This document shows positions 26,529 to 60,982 of a DNA stretch of 64,000 nucleotides, one piece after another. The position numbers were made by a program, and so were the translations under genes. The notes under the pieces were generated by a model. It worked only from the letters and a program-made list of their open reading frames with translations. It had not been told where the DNA came from and did no database searches. Every line of letters begins with the position of its first letter. The first letter of the stretch is position 1. The DNA is from a virus: IMG/VR virus record IMGVR_UViG_3300046507_000773, positions 124,001-188,000 of that record; one strand, given 5' to 3'.

Positions 26529-27536
26529 ATGACCGAAGCAAATAACAAAGGCCAGATCCGCATTTACGCTTGCGGCGGCGCTGGCATCAACGTCGGCAAA
26601 CTGTTCGAAGTGGCACGCGGCGAGAACGCTCCGGCCTTCGCCCAGATGCATGTGTCCTACCTCGACACCTCGGATTCGAACCTGAAGACCGTCAAGACCA
26701 CCCTGGACAACATCTACCGCATTGAAGGCATCGACGGCTCCGGCCAGGTCCGCGCCGAGAACTACGACGAGATCGCTCCGCGTGTTCGCGACATGCTGCA
26801 AAAGCACCCGGCCCTGGACCTGTCGATCGTCATCCACTCGTTCTCCGGCGGCAGCGGTTCCGTCATCGGCCCGTCGCTGGTTTCCGAACTGACCGACGAA
26901 GGCAAGAACGTGATCGTGATCGGCATCGGTGACGCCTCGACCGTCAACTACGCCAACAACACGATGAAGACGATCAAGTCGTACGGCAACATCGCCCACA
27001 CCAAGGAAGTGCCGATCATCGCGGCCTACTTCGAAAACACGCCGACCACCCCGCGCTCGGAAGTCGACCTGGCCATCCAGCAACTGGTCACTGCCCTGGC
27101 CGTGCTGTTCTCCCGCGAGAACCACGAACTGGACAGCGCAGACCTGCGCAACTGGCTGAACTTCCAGAAGGTCACCAGTTTCGAGCCACAACTGGGCGCC
27201 CTGACGCTGTTCGAAGGCACCGACCTGGCCGCCGACTACGGCGAAATCATCACGGTGGCCACCCTGGCTACCGAGAAGTCCGGCACCACGCTCAACAGCG
27301 TGATCGGCTACCAGACCGTCGGCTGGCTGCCGCCGGCTGACAGCGAGCAGATGAAGAAGGTGCATGCAGCCGCACCGATCCACTTCATGATCTCCGACGG
27401 CGTCTTCGGCGACGTCAACGATCGGCTCGAGAAGTTCCTCGCGGATCACCAGAAACGCGTGGACTCCCGCCCCCCGAAGAAGAACACCATTCTGAAGGGG
27501 ACCGAGGGCGCGACCAAGAACGGCGTTGTCCTCTGA
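26529..27536 (+). CDS. phuZ: Phage tubulin/FtsZ-like GTPase (PhuZ type)
   Basis: This 335-residue protein carries the tubulin nucleotide-binding signatures: N-terminal IYACGGAGINVGKL (residues 12-24) and the G-box HSFSGGSGSVIGP (residues 103-115; GGSGS at 107-111). A following VNYANNTMKTI segment carries the base-contact Asn. The C-terminus is polar and basic (PPKKNTILKG). Phage tubulins form dynamic filaments that centre the phage nucleus and carry capsids to it. Length fits PhuZ (about 315-325). Codon bias is the strongest class in the window. It has an AAAAAGGAAATAGC ribosome binding site. Confidence 0.9.
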   Translation: MTEANNKGQIRIYACGGAGINVGKLFEVARGENAPAFAQMHVSYLDTSDSNLKTVKTTLDNIYRIEGIDGSGQVRAENYDEIAPRVRDMLQKHPALDLSIVIHSFSGGSGSVIGPSLVSELTDEGKNVIVIGIGDASTVNYANNTMKTIKSYGNIAHTKEVPIIAAYFENTPTTPRSEVDLAIQQLVTALAVLFSRENHELDSADLRNWLNFQKVTSFEPQLGALTLFEGTDLAADYGEIITVATLATEKSGTTLNSVIGYQTVGWLPPADSEQMKKVHAAAPIHFMISDGVFGDVNDRLEKFLADHQKRVDSRPPKKNTILKGTEGATKNGVVL

Positions 27537-37298: not shown

Positions 37299-37380
37299 AA
37301 CTTGAAATTGTAGTAGCAATGCTTCGATTTCAACATGTTTGCGCAAACATTTATTAATAGAAAAGAAAGGTAACACTATC

Positions 37381-39384
37381 ATGGCCGTACAAGGTAAAGA
37401 CGATCCGAAGAAGAACACCACTGGCTTCGGTTCCAACCAGCAGCAGCAAACCGCCATGGGCGCCAGCTTCGAGCGCGCTCGTGAAAACCAGCAACCCAAC
37501 CAGAACGAAAGCATGAACAACAACTTCGGCTCGAACACCACCGGCAACGACGACGGCATGTGGTCCTTCCTGAACCCGTCCGCAAACGGCCTGTACACCG
37601 TCACCGACACCGCCGCCGGCGAAGCCCTGTCCAAGCTGGACAAGGCCCTGGGCGAGATCTACAAGAGCGCCAACCCGGCGATCCAGATCACCACGCTGCC
37701 GCTGTCGATGGAAGCGAACCAGATGCTGAACATCGACACGCTGGTCGTCATCACCCGCCTGACCAACGTGCCGCAGGCCGGCATCGCCTACCACCCGATC
37801 CTGATCGCTTCCTCGATCCCGAAGATCGAAGACGCAGTCGTCCAGGTCAACGGCGTGAACACCAACGAAACCCGCGTCGAAGGCGACGTGGCTGACGACG
37901 TCTTCCACGAAGCCGTCTTCAACGAAGTGCGCCGCCTGTTCCCGAACGACCAGGTCACCATCACCCTGGGCGAAGTGCTGCCGCGCGTCTTCAACTTCGA
38001 CGACAAGGACGCCGTCCAGAAAGTCGCACGCAATGCCTCGATGGCCGGCGCCGTGACCCTGCAGAAACTGGTGCCGGGCTGGAGCGACCTGAACCTGGCG
38101 AACGTCAAGAAGGACTCGAGCCTGACCCTGCGCTCGAACTACGGCCAGCCGAACGAAAACAACCGCGTCGGCCTGCCGGTCCGCTCGGACGTCGTCGTGT
38201 CCCTGACCGCCGAGCCGCTGAACCAGAACCAAGGCCAGCAGCGCCGTTCGGTCGTGCAGACCCGTTCCCGCGAAGTCTCGCGTGTCCAGGCCTTCGTCGA
38301 TCTGGTCTGGGCGCCGACCACCGGTCCGCGCAATCCGTTCTTCAATGCGCAGATGAACCAGCAGCCGGCATTCGGCCAGCCGGTGCAGCAGACCAACCCG
38401 CACCAGCGTTACATCCCGCGCATCGTCGTGACCGGCCTGTCGACCCAGAACCCGCCGACCACCGCCATGCAGCTGCTGTCGGCCCTGCTGTCGTCGTACA
38501 TCAGCGAAGAAGGTCACTGGGTCCACGCGTTCCAGCCGCGTACCTACCGTTCGGGCTCGAAAGAGATCGACATGCACGACATCGGCGCGCTCGCTATCGA
38601 AGCCAACTTCGAGAACGATCCGTCCGGCCTGGGCCAGCGTGTGGACACCAGCCTGGAAACCTTCCAGCCGATGCTCGCCGATTACCTGGCGGCCATCATC
38701 CGTCCTGACCCGATCATCTCGGTCGACGTCGACGAATGCGGCCCGGACAGCTGGTACAACGGCTTCCTGCCGATGGCAGCTGAAGGTCAACAGGAAGCGC
38801 TGGACGAACTGTTCAACGCATGGAACATCCTGACCAACGGCCGCTTCGCCATCAACTGGGAAAAAGCGCAGTACAACGGCCAGATCTGCACCGACGAGAA
38901 CAACCGCATCCACCTGGGTTACTACCTGGACGCGGAAGGCAACCGTCGCGACCTGCGCGAAATCGACTACCTGGCTGTGCTGAACCGTTTCGGCGGCGGC
39001 ACCGACCACGACATCGTCAAGCGCTGGTCCGACTCGTTCATCGACGGTACCGATCCGCTGCTGAAGCGTCTGGAAAACCGCAAGAAGATCATCGACATGA
39101 TGACGCAGAACACCGCGGTGTACACGGGCTTCGCTCGTCGCATCTCCTTCGCGCACGTCCTGATGCAAGTCGGCGCCAAGTCGGCCAAGGAAGCCGGCCT
39201 GGACTTCCGTACCATCTCGAGCCACGCTCAGCTGAAGACCAACGAACGCGCCTCCGGCAACTTCGACAACCTGATGATGTCGGGCAGCCAGAGCTCGGGC
39301 CTGTTCGGCCGCACCTCGTTCGGTCAAGCGTCGAACAACTTCGGCTCGAACCGTTCGTTCGGCTTCTCGCGCAGCAGCTTCTAA
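37381..39384 (+). CDS. Candidate phage nuclear shell protein (chimallin, phiKZ gp54 position)
   Basis: This 667-residue protein has codon bias among the strongest in the window, pointing to very high expression. It lies immediately upstream of an RNA polymerase beta-prime gene, as gp54 precedes gp55 in phiKZ. It has a disordered Gln/Asn-rich N-terminus (to about residue 58), a folded core, and a flexible Ser/Phe/Gly tail with FG pairs (LFGRTSFGQ, FGFSRSSF). Chimallin monomers (about 600-630 residues) use flexible terminal segments to join into a sheet enclosing phage DNA. The start at 37381 follows GAAAGGTAACACTATC; an upstream in-frame start at 37339 has no binding site. The call rests on position, size and character. 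Confidence 0.65.
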   Translation: MAVQGKDDPKKNTTGFGSNQQQQTAMGASFERARENQQPNQNESMNNNFGSNTTGNDDGMWSFLNPSANGLYTVTDTAAGEALSKLDKALGEIYKSANPAIQITTLPLSMEANQMLNIDTLVVITRLTNVPQAGIAYHPILIASSIPKIEDAVVQVNGVNTNETRVEGDVADDVFHEAVFNEVRRLFPNDQVTITLGEVLPRVFNFDDKDAVQKVARNASMAGAVTLQKLVPGWSDLNLANVKKDSSLTLRSNYGQPNENNRVGLPVRSDVVVSLTAEPLNQNQGQQRRSVVQTRSREVSRVQAFVDLVWAPTTGPRNPFFNAQMNQQPAFGQPVQQTNPHQRYIPRIVVTGLSTQNPPTTAMQLLSALLSSYISEEGHWVHAFQPRTYRSGSKEIDMHDIGALAIEANFENDPSGLGQRVDTSLETFQPMLADYLAAIIRPDPIISVDVDECGPDSWYNGFLPMAAEGQQEALDELFNAWNILTNGRFAINWEKAQYNGQICTDENNRIHLGYYLDAEGNRRDLREIDYLAVLNRFGGGTDHDIVKRWSDSFIDGTDPLLKRLENRKKIIDMMTQNTAVYTGFARRISFAHVLMQVGAKSAKEAGLDFRTISSHAQLKTNERASGNFDNLMMSGSQSSGLFGRTSFGQASNNFGSNRSFGFSRSSF

Positions 39385-47198: not shown

Positions 47199-48683
47199 AT
47201 GTTTCAAGCATCGAACATCCGCGTCGCCCGTTTCCTGATTTACGAAACCCTCGGCTACGACAACATGTACCGCCGCGCATACAAGACCACGGCTGATGGC
47301 GTTGCCTTCGATACCCTGGCTGAGCGCATCTCGGCCCATGACCGTATTACGACCGACACTGTCGTCGGCCTGACCAACGGCTTCCTGGCACCGGACATCA
47401 ATACCGAATCGCCCAATCCGATCTTCATCCCGGACGGCTGGGGCGCCAAGCGTTGCCGCTTCTTGCTGGAACTGGAATACGACTTCGGCGGCCTCGGCTC
47501 GAAGATCCGTGAAGCCTTCATGGGCTGGACCGATCACTACGGTTTGTCGCTGCAAAGCCAAGCGATCGACCGCGACATGGTGTTCCACCTGAACTCGGTG
47601 TCGCACATGAAGATCCAGGAAATCCCGACGCTCAACGGCATCGAGAAGCACTACAGCGTCCTGGACACGTCGCACATCCTCGCAGCCCAGCAACATCACG
47701 GCCAAAGCGGCGCCTTCAATAACGAGAAGCTGTTCCGCATGCGTCCGGACGATCTGTTCGCCACGATGCAGCTGTCGCACCTGGACACTGGCGGCACCTA
47801 CGACGACCGTACCCGGATCGGCACTGGCGCCCAAAAGGCATCGCGCTCGTCGAACATCACGACGAACTACATGACGAAGATCCTGGACTCGTACCTGACG
47901 GCCGCCCGCACCCAGGGTGACCTCGGCCAAGACGCCCCGGACATCCTGGAATCGGCACGCAACCGTTCGTACCAGACCAGCTCGGCTTCGTCCGATCCAT
48001 TCCTGCGCGAGATCTCCCGCCTGGAAAACGGTGGCAACTACATCCAGGACCACTTCACGTACGCGACGCTCTTGTCGATCGATCCGAACGCTGACAACAT
48101 GGCCGAAGTGCAGGTGCTGCCGACCATGATGCGTGACAGCTGGGCAGGCAACACCTCGGAAGAAACCTGGGGTGGCCGCGACATCTACGCACAGTTCGCC
48201 ACCATCCTGGCCCAGTCGGTCCCGTCGATCCTGATGGAAACCGGCCTGCAAGCGGTGAAGTTCCAGTCGACGAATCGCAAGATCGGCATGCAGATCGAAA
48301 CCACCATCCAGGGCATCAAGTCCTTCAGCGAAGTGTTCTCCCTGGCGCAACAGGGCAACACTTTCATCGAGCGGGTCAACCGCGAGATCATGCTGGACCT
48401 GTCCTTCAACGGACAGATGGACTACGGCCTCATCATGGAAATGTCGATCCACGGTGAATGCATCGTCGAGCTTTCGCTGAATGGCGACAACAACCTGCAC
48501 CGGTTCGTTGCTCCGCTGTTTGCCGATGCGTTCTTCAGCCCGATCGTCACCAGCGATCAACAGCGCAGCCACATGAACGCGGAACACTTCGGTCAATTGG
48601 CCGGACGTCTCGCAGAAGTCAATCTCCTGGGCAGCGCTACGAGCACCAACATCCAGGTCGGCGCCGGCGGCATGGCGTTCTAA
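47199..48683 (+). CDS. Unrecognised 494-residue protein, phiKZ gp69 position
   Basis: It begins directly after the previous stop with AAAAAGGAGCTTTTAA. Codon bias is very high, unlike the polymerase genes on either side, so the product is likely abundant. The protein is mixed, with strands in the N-terminal third and helices near 380-430 (EIMLDLSFNGQMDYGLIMEM). It ends in Gly/Ala/Thr. Either a virion protein or an abundant nucleus-associated protein would fit. Confidence 0.8.
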   Translation: MFQASNIRVARFLIYETLGYDNMYRRAYKTTADGVAFDTLAERISAHDRITTDTVVGLTNGFLAPDINTESPNPIFIPDGWGAKRCRFLLELEYDFGGLGSKIREAFMGWTDHYGLSLQSQAIDRDMVFHLNSVSHMKIQEIPTLNGIEKHYSVLDTSHILAAQQHHGQSGAFNNEKLFRMRPDDLFATMQLSHLDTGGTYDDRTRIGTGAQKASRSSNITTNYMTKILDSYLTAARTQGDLGQDAPDILESARNRSYQTSSASSDPFLREISRLENGGNYIQDHFTYATLLSIDPNADNMAEVQVLPTMMRDSWAGNTSEETWGGRDIYAQFATILAQSVPSILMETGLQAVKFQSTNRKIGMQIETTIQGIKSFSEVFSLAQQGNTFIERVNREIMLDLSFNGQMDYGLIMEMSIHGECIVELSLNGDNNLHRFVAPLFADAFFSPIVTSDQQRSHMNAEHFGQLAGRLAEVNLLGSATSTNIQVGAGGMAF

Positions 48684-54988: not shown

Positions 54989-56521
54989 ATGGCGACTGAA
55001 CTTACCATCAGGATGCGGACTCACCATTTTGTGGTGAACCGCATCACGCCTCGTAGTCGTCCGTGCGTGACGGCATTTGCGAGGCAATATATCCAATATG
55101 GTTTTTCTCGAGGTAACGGTTTTGCACGCCCAGCCTTGAAGGTCTATGCAGCCGCCACGGATGATCGGAGTGAGTATCGCTTCCATATCAACCAATGGGC
55201 TCCGTTCCAGGAGTTCTTGCGACTGCACCGACTGGATGAAGCTCTCATTGAGCTCATTCACGATCCTTTGCATGAGGCGCTACCTGTAGAGCTTCCTGTG
55301 CTCCCGCAGTGGGTGCCACGGGAATCCCAGCCGCTGGCGATTGAATACTTGGTAAAGCCGCCTCCGCCGCATTCCAAGTTCGTCGACATGCAGACAGGTA
55401 AAGGGAAATCCTTTTGCGCCATGCAGGGCATGTCCACTGTCGGTTTCCGAACCGTCGGTGTGATGAAGCCTCAGTTCCTTGCAAAATGGATTGAGGACAT
55501 GGGGAGAACTTACGATTTGCCACTCGATCAATACGTGGTGATTCGTGGGTCGGACCAATTGATTGCGCTGCTACATCTTGCCATGTCGGGGGAGCTCACA
55601 CAACGGGTGATCCTGATCAGTAACAAGACGATGCAGAACTACATCAAGCTCTACGAAGAGCATGGTGCCGCAATCGTTGACATGGGCTACCCATGCATGC
55701 CTGACGAGATGTGGGCGATACTGCAAGCTGGTATTCGCTTGATCGACGAAGTTCACATGGACTACCATCTGAACTTTAAGCTTGACCTGTACACCAACAT
55801 CTACTTGTCGTTCTCGCTGTCGGCCACCTTGCTGTCTAAGGATGCCTTCCAGATGAGGATGTACGAGCTCGGCTACCCGATGGTGCAACGCTATAAGGGG
55901 CCAGCTTACGACAAGTACGCACGTACCCGTGCTGTCTTGTACGCGTTTAAAGAACCGGACAAGATCAAGTGCCGTGAACGTGGCTCGACGATGTATTCGC
56001 ACAATGTGTTCGAGGACAGCATCCTCAAGAGTCCCAAGATGACCGGGAACTTCTTCGAGTTTGCCAACACGATCTTAAAGCGCGAGTACCTGGAAGAAGG
56101 TTTCTACAAGAAGGGCGACCGGGCGATCATCTATTGCAGTTCGATCGACATGTGTACGGCCCTATCGGATTACTTGAAGAAGCTCTACCCAGACAAAGTC
56201 GTCAACCGTTACGTGGGTCTTGATCCACGTGAACACCTGATGGAATCTGAGATCGTGGTCACCACACTCGGTTCCGCTGGTACGGGTCACGACATTCCGG
56301 ACTTGACGACTGTGATTCTCTTGGTCGCTATCCGGGCAAGTGCTGGTAACTTGCAGGGCTTTGGTCGCTTACGTAAGTTGAAAGACGGACGCACGCCGCG
56401 TTTCGCTTACGGTGTGAACGAGGACAACCTCAAGCACGTCGAGTACCACGAGGACAAGCGGGAGCTCTTGGAGAGCCGCAGTGTTTCGTACAAGCTCGAG
56501 TACTATGATCTACTGATCTAG
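54989..56521 (+). CDS. SF2 helicase (DExH type)
   Basis: This 510-residue protein has Walker A MQTGKGKSF at residues 134-142 and a DEVH box at 253-256 (LIDEVHMD). The second RecA-like half has RAIIYCSSIDMCTAL, then VVTTLGSAGTGHDIPD (motif V) and NLQGFGRLRKLKDG (motif VI). The layout is like T4 UvsW and similar phage helicases that remodel replication forks and recombination intermediates. It sits 25 bases after the beta-prime gene, in the phiKZ gp75 position, so it could also serve transcription. Confidence 0.88.
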   Translation: MATELTIRMRTHHFVVNRITPRSRPCVTAFARQYIQYGFSRGNGFARPALKVYAAATDDRSEYRFHINQWAPFQEFLRLHRLDEALIELIHDPLHEALPVELPVLPQWVPRESQPLAIEYLVKPPPPHSKFVDMQTGKGKSFCAMQGMSTVGFRTVGVMKPQFLAKWIEDMGRTYDLPLDQYVVIRGSDQLIALLHLAMSGELTQRVILISNKTMQNYIKLYEEHGAAIVDMGYPCMPDEMWAILQAGIRLIDEVHMDYHLNFKLDLYTNIYLSFSLSATLLSKDAFQMRMYELGYPMVQRYKGPAYDKYARTRAVLYAFKEPDKIKCRERGSTMYSHNVFEDSILKSPKMTGNFFEFANTILKREYLEEGFYKKGDRAIIYCSSIDMCTALSDYLKKLYPDKVVNRYVGLDPREHLMESEIVVTTLGSAGTGHDIPDLTTVILLVAIRASAGNLQGFGRLRKLKDGRTPRFAYGVNEDNLKHVEYHEDKRELLESRSVSYKLEYYDLLI

Positions 56522-57044: not shown

Positions 57045-57096
57045 GGCATAAACCCCCAGGCTTATCACCTGGGGGCTCATCTTATTTTTTTTTGTT
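57045..57096. terminator. Hairpin terminator between convergent genes
   Basis: CCCCCAGG and CCTGGGGG pair around CTTATCA, with a T-run after. CCGGCATAAA before it gives the minus strand its TTTATGCCG tail. Confidence 0.8.
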
Positions 57097-57549
57097 TCAA
57101 TAGTTGTTGCCAGGCTCCAGAACAATCACTTCCATCTCCGTCTCACCCAGATACTCGGTAATGAGAGGACGCACCTCATCCCATTCCAATCCACCTTTGC
57201 CGCAACCAATGGCAGGGATCGCGATGCTTGTAAGGTCATGCTCCTTGTATGTCTCGGCTAATTTCTTCAGTCCCTCTTTAATCCACTTTAGTTGTGAATC
57301 ATGTCCCCAGTAACGCTTTGTGGGAAAGCAGACTATCTTTGTGCCGTACTTTTCCGTAAAGACAAAGTACCCGTCCTTTTCAAAGACACCCGTGTTACAT
57401 GCTTTTTTGTAGGCATCGTATAGACCACCATAGCGATTACGAAACGCAGCAGCCAGGCCATTCCCCATGACGCCGACTGTGTTGACCGGACACACCAAAG
57501 CTTTGGCTTTCGAGAAGAAGATATTCTCGTCTTGATGAAAAGTGATCAT
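57097..57549 (-). CDS. Macro domain protein, DarG/TARG1-like ADP-ribose hydrolase
   Basis: This 150-residue single macro domain has CPVNTVGVMGNGLAAAF (residues 20-36), the ADP-ribose-binding loop in the form typical of DarG. It has FPTKRYWG (75-82) with K78 in the place of the catalytic lysine of DarG and TARG1, then WIKEGLKKL, and IPAIGCGKGGLEW near 112-124. DarG removes ADP-ribose added to DNA by the toxin DarT; TARG1 acts on proteins and nucleic acids. No DarT-like toxin gene is next to it, so it may counter host DarT-type defence or process ADP-ribosylated targets. The ribosome binding site is GAGAAGGATT. Confidence 0.85.
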   Translation of the reverse strand: MITFHQDENIFFSKAKALVCPVNTVGVMGNGLAAAFRNRYGGLYDAYKKACNTGVFEKDGYFVFTEKYGTKIVCFPTKRYWGHDSQLKWIKEGLKKLAETYKEHDLTSIAIPAIGCGKGGLEWDEVRPLITEYLGETEMEVIVLEPGNNY

Positions 57550-57650
57550 AATCCTTCTCTTGTAAGTTCAACTACAAGATGAGGTTCTCCAATATAAACC
57601 ACATAGGAGGCGTAGAACTCCAGGGGGAAAACAACTACCGGGAAACTATC

Positions 57651-58163
57651 ATGGCAATCATCCGACCGACTCGGAAAAACTCAGGAGTGGAAACACTCAT
57701 CAAGATCTTAGCACTACTTACTGATGACATTACGCTCTTTAATGGGCAGATCCTAATGTCGCAGTTTAGCATCGGCTTACTCCAAGCCACCAAGATGAGC
57801 CTTTTCATCGACCCAAGTCCTTTTGCGTACATCGGCCCGAGAAACGTGTGGCTCCAGGACTACAAAGATGGTGTCAGCGTGTATTACGCGAATGAAATAG
57901 AAGCCTGTGAGTTTCTAGGACGACTTGAGCTTAAAATCAGTTTGGAAGAAAGCTTTCCAGAAAAGAATCGCCAGCATTACCGATTGGACGATTTAGATAC
58001 CGCAGCAGAACACATCCGTAACTATCTTCTCATCGGGCTCTACCCAGGGCACAAGATTGAACCACCGACCAATGAGTGGCTCAACAAGTTTATTAAAGCA
58101 CGAGAGTGGGATGTACTGGCCACCTTTGAACCCTCCGACATCGCGCTACTTAAACCAAGATAA
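57651..58163 (+). CDS. Unrecognised 170-residue protein
   Basis: The start is uncertain. ATG 57651 follows CGGGAAACTATC and leaves about 100 bases for divergent promoters. ATG 57579 would add 24 residues but lies only 30 bases from the divergent macro-domain start. The protein is mixed, with helices (GVETLIKILALLTDDITLF). No domain was recognised. Codon bias is low. Confidence 0.75.
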   Translation: MAIIRPTRKNSGVETLIKILALLTDDITLFNGQILMSQFSIGLLQATKMSLFIDPSPFAYIGPRNVWLQDYKDGVSVYYANEIEACEFLGRLELKISLEESFPEKNRQHYRLDDLDTAAEHIRNYLLIGLYPGHKIEPPTNEWLNKFIKAREWDVLATFEPSDIALLKPR

Positions 58164-58205: not shown

Positions 58206-58601
58206 TTACTTACCACTGTTCTTTCTTTTTTCTTCCTCGAGGCGATCCAGCTCTTTCTGCCGTGCTTCGACTTCTTCCTTCAAGAGCTGCAAGCAGCTTT
58301 GAATGTACATCTCACCCACGTACCTAGGCATGTCGAGGAACCGATCAAACGTGATACCCGTGTACTTGAGTACTTGGGCAGCGTGATAGGCCTTCATGCG
58401 TTCGGGTGTGGGATCGAATAGGTCGATGTTCTCAGCAGGGCGATGGCGAATCAGTGACATGTCATCAGTCTGCCGCGCGTGATCATGGATGCCGTACGTT
58501 GTTTCGTACGCGTCACGCATCAGAAGCTGAGTTTCCACAGAACTAATTACTGGTGCCACCTTAAGCAAGGCTTTGATGGCGCTCTCTGACGAGACCATCA
58601 A
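58206..58601 (-). CDS. Unrecognised 131-residue protein with C-terminal charged helix
   Basis: It lies 29 bases after the gene at 58631 on the same strand; the binding site is weak. The C-terminal 35 residues form a Glu/Lys-rich helix (LKEEVEARQKELDRLEEEKR), probably a coiled coil. The rest is helical. It likely works with the upstream virion-type proteins. No family was recognised. Confidence 0.75.
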   Translation of the reverse strand: MMVSSESAIKALLKVAPVISSVETQLLMRDAYETTYGIHDHARQTDDMSLIRHRPAENIDLFDPTPERMKAYHAAQVLKYTGITFDRFLDMPRYVGEMYIQSCLQLLKEEVEARQKELDRLEEEKRKNSGK

Positions 58602-58630: not shown

Positions 58631-60190
58631 TTAGCGGTTCCTGATCTGCTCGACCCTCTGCACGAGCAGGATGAAAAAAGTGTGGAACACGTCAATCGGC
58701 AGCAGGTGCGGATAGTTCGGGTTCATCACTTTCTCATCCACTGGCTCACCCGGCTCAACAGGCACTGCCACCAGGCAGACGGTCACGTCGTTGATGTACT
58801 TCTTCACCTCACGGAAGTACACCTCGCTTGCCTCGTTATCGGCACTCATGTCGTCGAGCAGTGCGTCGATGACGTCCTGATCTTCGCCCGTAGTGTAGAT
58901 GACGCCGTTGACGTGGACAGCCTTGATCCAGTGGCCGAATTGGCGCATGTCGCTGGCTTTGCCGTGCTGGTTGATGAAGTCGTTGCGGGCATCGTCCGTC
59001 GGCGGCAGTGCAAATGCTTTGTCGACCATCGTGACGATGTTGTTGATCCAGCGCTGACCCGAGTTGAGGTACTCGTTGACAGTCGGGACCTTCAGCTCGA
59101 TCGAAACGTTCTCGTTCAGGGGCACCATGCGCGGCTGACCGCGGGTGAACTCCTTGCGATACTTTTCCAGATCGTCGTCGGTGACGTTCATGCCGTAGCG
59201 CTGCGACAGGTGTGCGCGTTGCCATGGAGTGAACGCACGGTTGTCGAACCACTGCATCTTCGGGATCGACACGACACCATTGCGAGTCGGCGTTTGCGTG
59301 GCTGCATTGCTCAGCAGTGCGCGGCTATAGTTAAAGCCGTTCGGCCAGATTGCAGCGGCGCCGCCCAGAATGAACGATGGCAGATCGGTGATCAGCATCT
59401 TGTCGCCCAGGTTCTCGATACCGGATTTCAGCGTCGAGTCGTAGACCATGTTGGTCACGAACTGCGAGATACTGCCGGCGAAGAACGAGTTCATGTTCGA
59501 GAACGCCACACCGGTGGTTTCACGGCCCATCTGGATTTTGTCTTCAGCCAGGTGACGCATGAGGTCGATGTAGTTGGCGTCGGAGCCAGCACGAACCGAA
59601 ACCCAGAAGCCGCTATGGGGCAGCATCACTTGGCGCGGCGTGCCACGACCCATCAGGGCGCGCACTTGCAGAACAGCACGTTCGCCGGTCAGCTTTTCGC
59701 CTTCCTTGGCACCGATCTTGACAGCGCCCATGCCGAGCTTGGCGCCTTCGTGGTCGATGAACTGTTTCCATTCGGCGTCAGCACGGGAAGCAGCGTCACC
59801 CAGTGCGTCTCCGTCGTACAGGTTGTTCAGGGACAGCTGGAGAACGTTCAGCCAACGAGCAGCCCGCGGGTCCTTTTCCAGGTCCAGCTTCGGGATCTGT
59901 TCGATGACTTCCTGGATACGCTCTTGCGTTTCCGGCGGCAGTGCCACGACAGGCAGCTTCTGGTTCAGATCCTTGAAAGGCTTTTCTTCCATCGGATTCG
60001 TGTCCATCACAGCGTTGTCGGGCTGTTCACGCGGCGTGAGCTTGATGTGCGTTTGTTCGACGGCGACGACGTCTTCTTGCGTGGCGGGAGCCGCAGCCGG
60101 AGCAGGAGTTGCATCCGGTTGTGCGGTCATATCGGGCGCAGCTTGTGCGCCCGACTCCACCACAGGGTCTTTTTGATCCTGGGTATCCAT
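58631..60190 (-). CDS. Probable virion or assembly protein, 519 residues
   Basis: The first 45 residues are Ala/Pro/Gln-rich and probably disordered. A folded region follows from about residue 75 on. The segment LMGRGTPRQVMLPHSGFWVS near residue 180 and a C-terminal domain (about 400-519) look well ordered. Codon bias is high, as for virion genes. It is the middle gene of a minus-strand three-gene unit. The disordered Ala/Pro leader resembles that of the protein at 63179. No family was recognised. Confidence 0.8.
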   Translation of the reverse strand: MDTQDQKDPVVESGAQAAPDMTAQPDATPAPAAAPATQEDVVAVEQTHIKLTPREQPDNAVMDTNPMEEKPFKDLNQKLPVVALPPETQERIQEVIEQIPKLDLEKDPRAARWLNVLQLSLNNLYDGDALGDAASRADAEWKQFIDHEGAKLGMGAVKIGAKEGEKLTGERAVLQVRALMGRGTPRQVMLPHSGFWVSVRAGSDANYIDLMRHLAEDKIQMGRETTGVAFSNMNSFFAGSISQFVTNMVYDSTLKSGIENLGDKMLITDLPSFILGGAAAIWPNGFNYSRALLSNAATQTPTRNGVVSIPKMQWFDNRAFTPWQRAHLSQRYGMNVTDDDLEKYRKEFTRGQPRMVPLNENVSIELKVPTVNEYLNSGQRWINNIVTMVDKAFALPPTDDARNDFINQHGKASDMRQFGHWIKAVHVNGVIYTTGEDQDVIDALLDDMSADNEASEVYFREVKKYINDVTVCLVAVPVEPGEPVDEKVMNPNYPHLLPIDVFHTFFILLVQRVEQIRNR

Positions 60191-60208: not shown

Positions 60209-60823
60209 TTAAGCAGCAACCGGCTCTTCGATGACGCGCACCTTGGTACCCAGCGGTACCGGGTTGCCGTACTTGTCTTCTTGCACGGTGGCGCCGTTGT
60301 ACTGCTTGACGTAGACTTCGATCGGGTTCTCGTCGGTGGCAGCTGCGTAGCTGGCCAGGACTTGACGGGTGTGGGCTTGCTGACGTGCCTCGGCGTCCGA
60401 CAGGTACTGGATGATGTCCGCTTTGGTCGGCAGGATGAAGGCGTCGTATTCCGACTGCCAGGCGACGTACTTCTCGACCAGGCCGTAGGTCTTGAAGACT
60501 TCGTCGTAGTCGGCTTCACGGCCGGTGCGACCGGCGTGTTCTGCGCGGATCGGCTTGATCGATTCCAGCATGCGCAGCAGGTCGGTCTGCAGCAGGCGCA
60601 CTTTCATTTCCAGGTCGCCACGCTCTTCCTGGGACAGGAACGCGATCAGCTTGTGGTTCTTCAGGGCGTCCTTGAATTCCAGCGGGATCACCAGGCTTGT
60701 CAGGCAGGCGGCCGAAATCTTCTCGACTTCATCCCAGCCTTTACGGCCTTCGTCTTTGAGGTTTTGGGCCTGTTGTGCAGCTTGCTGGTCGCGGAATTTG
60801 CGAGCGTCGCTCTTCTTGGTCAT
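60209..60823 (-). CDS. Unrecognised 204-residue charged protein
   Basis: The start at 60823 (MTKKSDARKF) follows CTGGAGTAAATGTACC; longer in-frame versions reach into the promoter region. The N-terminal 40 residues form a charged helix. The C-terminal part has a short strand-rich end (VPLGTKVRVIEEPV). High codon bias. First gene of the minus-strand unit 58206-60823. Confidence 0.8.
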   Translation of the reverse strand: MTKKSDARKFRDQQAAQQAQNLKDEGRKGWDEVEKISAACLTSLVIPLEFKDALKNHKLIAFLSQEERGDLEMKVRLLQTDLLRMLESIKPIRAEHAGRTGREADYDEVFKTYGLVEKYVAWQSEYDAFILPTKADIIQYLSDAEARQQAHTRQVLASYAAATDENPIEVYVKQYNGATVQEDKYGNPVPLGTKVRVIEEPVAA

Positions 60824-60982
60824 GGTACATTTACTCCAGTGTGAACTATTATAGAAAGAGGGTGATGCCAAATCTTCTGACGATAGGAGAGCCAGTTGAG
60901 AAACTGTGGCATTTCCGAGAAGTAACGTCAAGGCTATTAAATTTGACGTAACAGTATTTTTTAACTTTTACCTGGAGCACGC

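Follow-up and report, generated by a model that had tools for sequence, protein, structure and literature searches.

A toxin-free DarG-type macrodomain in a probable nucleus-forming phage, with a possible role in countering DarTG

The window, that is the whole stretch of 64,000 nucleotides analyzed here, comes from a virus record of 226.8 kb. It contains a complete open reading frame for 150 aa on the minus strand (57097–57549) which begins with ATG and is preceded, just 5' of the start, by a ribosome-binding-like AGAAGGA. The features of the window that are considered in this work are the following:

26529–27533 (+): homologue of the PhuZ tubulin (phiKZ gp39), by homology
37339–39384 (+): homologue of chimallin (ChmA, the shell of the phage nucleus), with a homologue of phiKZ gp55 after it, the order seen in phiKZ, by homology
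47211–48668 (+): region homologous to PicA (phiKZ gp69, nuclear import factor), by homology
54989–56521 (+): homologue of the phiKZ gp75 SF2 helicase, which flanks the macro gene on its other side and is conserved there
57055–57090 (+): hairpin with a T-run, lying where the 56553 gene and the macro gene converge, by inspection
57097–57549 (-): standalone DarG-type macrodomain, a predicted ADP-ribosylhydrolase of 150 aa, from motif, profile and structure-model evidence
57559–57578 (no strand): perfect inverted repeat CTTGTA-N8-TACAAG (CTTGTAagttcaacTACAAG) in the 29 bp that separate the divergent macro and 57579 genes
57579–58163 (+): orphan ORF of 194 aa, divergent from the macro gene
58206–58601 (-): 131-aa protein (phrog_12109), in relatives usually the gene next upstream of macro
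58631–60190 (-): phiKZ gp77 homologue (phrog_4585) of the same leftward block, by homology
60209–60931 (-): positional counterpart of phiKZ gp78 and first gene of the leftward block, by position

The macro gene follows gp77 on the same strand in the window and in 21 other loci, the usual order in relatives being gp78-gp77-phrog_12109-macro. Where the contig extends far enough, this block points at the genes for the gp75 helicase and RNAP, and gp80 lies beyond its opposite end. In the window the otherwise conserved block is interrupted, next to the macro gene, by the orphan ORF at 57579–58163, for which no homologue was found in phage records. The inverted repeat beside it has its sole exact copy in the window at this place, and as many matches at up to two mismatches were obtained in 2 of 100 shuffles; it might possibly, at a tentative level, be an operator. 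The hairpin at 57055–57090 is a candidate terminator by inspection only and is absent from the terminator-scan list. A linkage of this macro gene with virion packaging or structure was considered and dropped, as no evidence for it was found; the neighbours are gp77, gp78 and phrog_12109.

An earlier note on this DNA had described the product as a single-domain protein with the NTVGVMG loop and FPTK-W motif of the DarG/TARG1 branch of macro domains. Both motifs are indeed present (VNTVGVMGNG at aa 22–31; FPTKRYW at aa 75–81, with the lysine at position 78). The protein was matched by the Pfam Macro profile (3.7e-15), by the PADLOC DarG profile (3.9e-51, profile positions 1–148 of 329) and by the NCBIfam DarG profile (2.4e-47, positions 7–151 of 338); its NCBIfam score of 161.9 bits lies below the full-length cut-off of 250 bits. 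The DarG profiles were thus matched over their N-terminal part only, in agreement with the single-domain description. Among solved structures the closest by sequence were the DarTG of T. africanus, TaqDarG and MtbDarG (7e-27 to 2e-24; TaqDarG 1.4e-26, MtbDarG 1.7e-24), while TARG1 gave a much weaker match (5e-9). In view of the Pfam, PADLOC, NCBIfam and PDB scores, the motif-bearing ORF is a real macrodomain, far beyond chance.

An AlphaFold2 model built from 48 sequences (mean pLDDT 96.1, pTM 0.90) was most similar in fold to TaqDarG (5m3e; TM 0.89, E 8e-16), followed by other DarGs and then by TARG1, with Poa1p and YmdB below. No sequence match to the MacroD/YmdB or Poa1p classes was found at E<=0.01, and this result together with the fold ranking places the nearest relatives outside these classes. 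Judged by profiles and the structure model, the protein is a full single macrodomain of the DarG branch, so the branch proposed earlier is upheld, with a position nearer DarG. It has in common with the DarG2 macrodomains (TaqDarG 5M31/5M3E, MtbDarG 5M3I, T. africanus DarTG 7OMU) the fold, the NTVGVMG loop, the FPTK-x-x-W motif and the residues N22, K80 and W83 (TaqDarG numbering), at about 40% identity with TaqDarG.

The catalytic lysine of TaqDarG is K80; turnover is likewise impaired by the changes N22A and K29E, and W83 is placed for stacking on thymine; the bare macrodomain is enough to rescue cells from DarT toxicity, with K80 required (PMC5179494). K78 of the window protein, the residue that the earlier note had proposed to check in a structural model, aligns with this lysine; N23 corresponds to N22 and W81 to W83, and the GxGxGG loop is kept. 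Unlike TaqDarG, the window protein has Asn (N30) at the K29 position and Pro at the position of T20, an ADP-ribose contact in TaqDarG. The same pattern was seen in standalone phage copies in general: K80 is kept in 64 of 65, N22 in all 65 and W83 in 57, and the K29 position is occupied by K or R in 27 of the 65. In DarT-paired copies this position is K in 69/69 bacterial and K or R in 26/26 phage sequences. The raw difference is strong, but it is not significant when phylogeny is taken into account, as only 0–4 informative independent pairs were available (median p 0.5), and loss of K29 was rejected as a signature of the toxin-free state. In the sole informative close pair (L017/L018) we observed purifying selection, with dN of 0.006 and dS of 0.22. 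The calculated pI is 6.3 for the window protein, 5.05 for phiKZ gp104 and 7.96 for TaqDarG; the lower value as compared with TaqDarG does not favour DNA binding.

Human TARG1 and Streptomyces SCO6735 (ALC1-like class) belong to the same macrodomain class, at far lower similarity to the window protein, and both take ADP-ribose off thymidine in DNA (PMC9411070). Of the Lys84/Asp125 dyad of TARG1, the lysine is aligned in the window protein (K78) and the aspartate is not kept: the D of the TARG1 GCGLDR loop is Gly (GCGKGG), as in DarG. In SCO6735, Gln stands in place of the DarG-type site. The window protein could be a broad nuclear hydrolase of the TARG1 type, clearing ADP-ribose from RNA, nucleic-acid phosphate ends and acidic protein residues modified by host ADP-ribosyltransferases other than DarT2. 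Such breadth would agree with the shared branch, with the replaced T20 and the non-Lys residue at the K29 position (Ala in TARG1), and with the activity of human TARG1 on proteins, T-ADPr DNA and phosphate ends (PMC11833690, PMC9411070); import into the phage nucleus, discussed below, would suit DNA, RNA and DNA-bound proteins equally (PMC11087766). It is opposed by the missing loop Asp, by the retention of W83, the proposed thymine stacker, and by the clear lead of DarG in sequence and fold scores, and we consider it unlikely, though still a serious candidate. The suggestion of the earlier note that proteins modified by the phage's own ADP-ribosyltransferases could be the substrate gained no support from a search of chosen ADP-ribosyltransferase families, in which ADPrib_exo_Tox, KptA and DarT had no match in the genome; NUDIX was not matched either.

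A complete DarG has about 340–390 aa, and its C-terminal, DarT-inhibiting (DNA-mimic) half is absent from the 150-aa protein, which, unlike DarG2, has a DarT neither adjacent to it nor elsewhere in the genome. DarT (PF14487) gave no match at E<=10 in the 226.8-kb phage record, so that both the phage-borne location and the lack of a toxin partner claimed earlier are borne out; a second macro domain was not found in this record. Relatives drawn from viral contigs, phage records and genomes revealed the same division by length. Long genes of DarG size lie next to DarT in 69 of 75 bacterial copies and in 26 of 34 phage ORFs (the long phage ORFs without a DarT neighbour include five Erwinia-type proteins of 425–429 aa), and none of the 66 short phage ORFs has a DarT neighbour. 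A toxin partner encoded elsewhere in the phage was also looked for in the window phage's own record and in 50 records with an unpaired copy, and DarT was found in none of them; in a positive control, the whole-record search detected DarT in 6 of 8 records with long copies. The unpaired state of short phage DarG-type macrodomains is therefore general and systematic.

Two further arrangements were met among the relatives. Five bacterial genomes (L116, L127, L151, L173, L177) carry standalone DarG-type macrodomains of 150–199 aa without a DarT neighbour, which could be prophage genes or remnants of toxin loss. In three viral contigs (L043, L046, L070) the order is reversed, a darG-type gene being followed by a longer DarT-like gene of 318–344 aa.

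Queries with phiKZ proteins revealed homologues of ChmA (E 9e-23), PhuZ (3e-35) and PicA (3e-28) in the record, and further homologues of gp55, gp70, gp71, gp74, gp75, gp77, gp80 and gp104. The RNAP beta subunit is closest to that of Burkholderia phage FLC9 (49%), and a megablast search of phage records with 24 kb of window sequence gave no match, so no close named phage is known. Because of its ChmA, PhuZ and PicA homologues, the window phage is, by gene content, probably nucleus-forming (Chimallivirus-like). It thus combines ChmA and PicA genes with a standalone DarG-type macrodomain. With the window ChmA as a query, homologues were found in 24 of the 50 toxin-free macrodomain records, including all 19 records over 200 kb.

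Standalone DarG-type proteins, about 30% identical to the window protein and with K80 kept, are present in the nucleus-forming phages phiKZ (gp104), PhiPA3 (gp108) and 201phi2-1 (gp167). The first two are imported into their own phage nucleus, gp104 by a PicA-dependent route, and gp104 was described as a macrodomain protein of unknown function (PMC11087766). We found no paper that links gp104 to DarG or to DNA de-ADP-ribosylation, in a literature search covering few subscription papers and preprints, and the papers that were found report no activity measurement on a DarG-branch macrodomain from a phage. phiKZ gp104 differs from the window copy in clade and in genome position, the latter lying by gp77/gp75; the idea that the two form one orthologous clade was rejected, as they fall in separate, well-supported clades in the trees. 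Another standalone type, that of phiEco32 gp37 (annotated as Appr-1-p processing in Kuraviruses), is 39–41% identical to the window protein and retains the active site; phiEco32 is a 77-kb podovirus without a detected ChmA, unlike the window phage.

Macro domains as a class are already known and common in phages: 56% of jumbo phages have them, and the main proposal is that they act on soluble ADPr derivatives (PMC9503650). Accordingly, the window protein might clear cADPR-type signals, ADPr-1''-phosphate or O-acetyl-ADPr that stem from NAD-consuming immunity or RNA repair of the host. This role was proposed for phage macro domains in general (PMC9503650, PMC7824862), and YAcAr/SLOG, a nucleotide-signal family, is the fusion partner of a homologous macrodomain in an Erwinia jumbo phage; the SLOG-fused copies, however, deviate at the active-site rim. 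No KptA, NUDIX or NADAR partner was found in the window genome, the import of gp104 and gp108 into the nucleus would make less sense for a freely diffusing metabolite, and the branch is that of DarG rather than MacroD/YmdB. We regard a metabolic substrate as quite unlikely.

It can also be imagined that the domain is an ADP-ribose-binding or structural module without useful hydrolysis and has another nuclear role, such as sensing or scaffolding. When phiKZ104 was knocked down, ChmA levels fell and plaque counts stayed unchanged in the strain tested, which would allow a role unrelated to DarTG; the authors of that study suggest that the gene is of benefit where the host has other defences (PMC12571901). 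The active site of the tandem second copy in FLC9 and its relatives has also drifted (in FLC9, K80 is replaced by R). However, the catalytic Lys, the Asn and the glycine loop are near-invariant across highly diverged copies, and a binding-only domain would not need to retain K80; this possibility therefore appears improbable.

The reading that we prefer, with a probability of about 0.45, is that the window protein is a competent DarG2-class hydrolase which repairs DarT2-modified phage DNA in the nucleus and so counters DarTG. A host DarT2-like toxin would ADP-ribosylate thymidine bases of phage DNA; the macro gene product, a catalytically competent DarG2-class ADP-ribosylhydrolase lacking the DarT-inhibiting half, would strip ADP-ribose from the modified thymidines inside the phage nucleus, and replication and transcription of the cleaned DNA could go on. 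We infer all three of its components, namely activity on thymidine-ADP-ribose in DNA, the protein's own nuclear import and the benefit against DarTG. A DNA-cleaning enzyme is preferred over a cytosolic metabolite enzyme because the toxin-free DarG macrodomain appears intact and relatives of the phage import its homologue into the nucleus. Confidence is held near this value by the precedent of the T4 NADAR described below, by the changes at K29 and T20, by the lower pI and by the question of DarT entry into the nucleus. The phage nucleus shuts out many host enzymes, which counts against this reading, as do the separate clades of gp104 and the window protein and the lack of a NADAR in the window phage.

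Phage-encoded counters of DarTG are known in ICP1 (AdfB) and in RB69/T4 (AdfA), and the role proposed here is the same; AdfB, unlike the window protein, is a 77-aa DarT binder and not a macrodomain hydrolase (PMC11481870). Phage NADARs of the T4 gp30.3 type are, as proposed here for the macrodomain, phage DNA de-ADP-ribosylases that stand alone and have no toxin partner, but they have an unrelated fold and a guanine-ADPr substrate. NADARs reverse guanosine ADP-ribosylation, the DarT1 mark, and the thymidine mark set by DarT2 is undone by the macrodomain of DarG (PMC11543638); the T4 NADAR hydrolyses the guanine mark in vitro and did not rescue from DarT1 toxicity (PMC11125620). A lone NADAR was revealed in FLC9 and in eight uncultured phages, all nine of them related to the window phage, and in Klebsiella phage Eowyn, so that ten chimallivirus-like records (those behind L002, L017–L021, L024, L037, L038 and L186) contain both a NADAR and an unpaired macrodomain; none was found in the window genome, phiKZ, PhiPA3, 201phi2-1 or Goslar. 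It is conceivable, though rather doubtful, that nucleus-forming phages run a DNA de-ADP-ribosylation kit in the nucleus, composed of a DarG-type macrodomain for thymidine-ADPr and often a NADAR for guanosine-ADPr, as a second, enzymatic layer behind the shell that would guard against DarT-type toxins capable of getting at the enclosed genome.

What is new here is the assignment to the DarG branch, the systematic lack of the toxin and of the C-terminal half, the nuclear context and the co-occurrence with NADAR. If the preferred repair reading is true, it would assign a function to the macrodomain family of gp104, already in use as a model cargo of phage-nucleus import, and a specific substrate to a class of phage genes that bear no annotation beyond "phosphatase" or "Appr-1-p processing". 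The nucleus would then not be a complete shield: some DNA-modifying defences would enter it or strike before it forms, and such damage would need to be undone enzymatically.

Relatives in viral contigs were retrieved with an alignment query, as a single-sequence peptide-pattern search of these contigs with the window protein found none. In the tree, the window protein belongs to a phage-only, toxin-free clade of 13 rows (support 98/88), outside the main clade of 54 rows that contains Taq and Mtb DarG (98/97). Supported branches force at least seven label changes for the short phage group, which indicates repeated gain or loss of the toxin-free state. Owing to their long branches, Goslar, TARG1 and YmdB are not reliably placed.

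A tandem second macro copy was found in FLC9 and three uncultured relatives (L002:8470–8922, L017:6443–6928, L018:6467–6928 and L019:6470–6928). Its active site is degenerating, the glycine loop being altered in addition to the K80 change mentioned above, and it shows dN of 0.067 and dS of 0.57. In Erwinia-type jumbo phages (L003:4001–5290, L044, L047, L055, L059) the DarG-type macrodomain forms the N-terminal part of a 425–429 aa protein. The C-terminal part of the one copy scanned (L003) has a weak YAcAr/SLOG match, and these SLOG-fused proteins carry W83 to T and H82 to K changes at the active-site rim.
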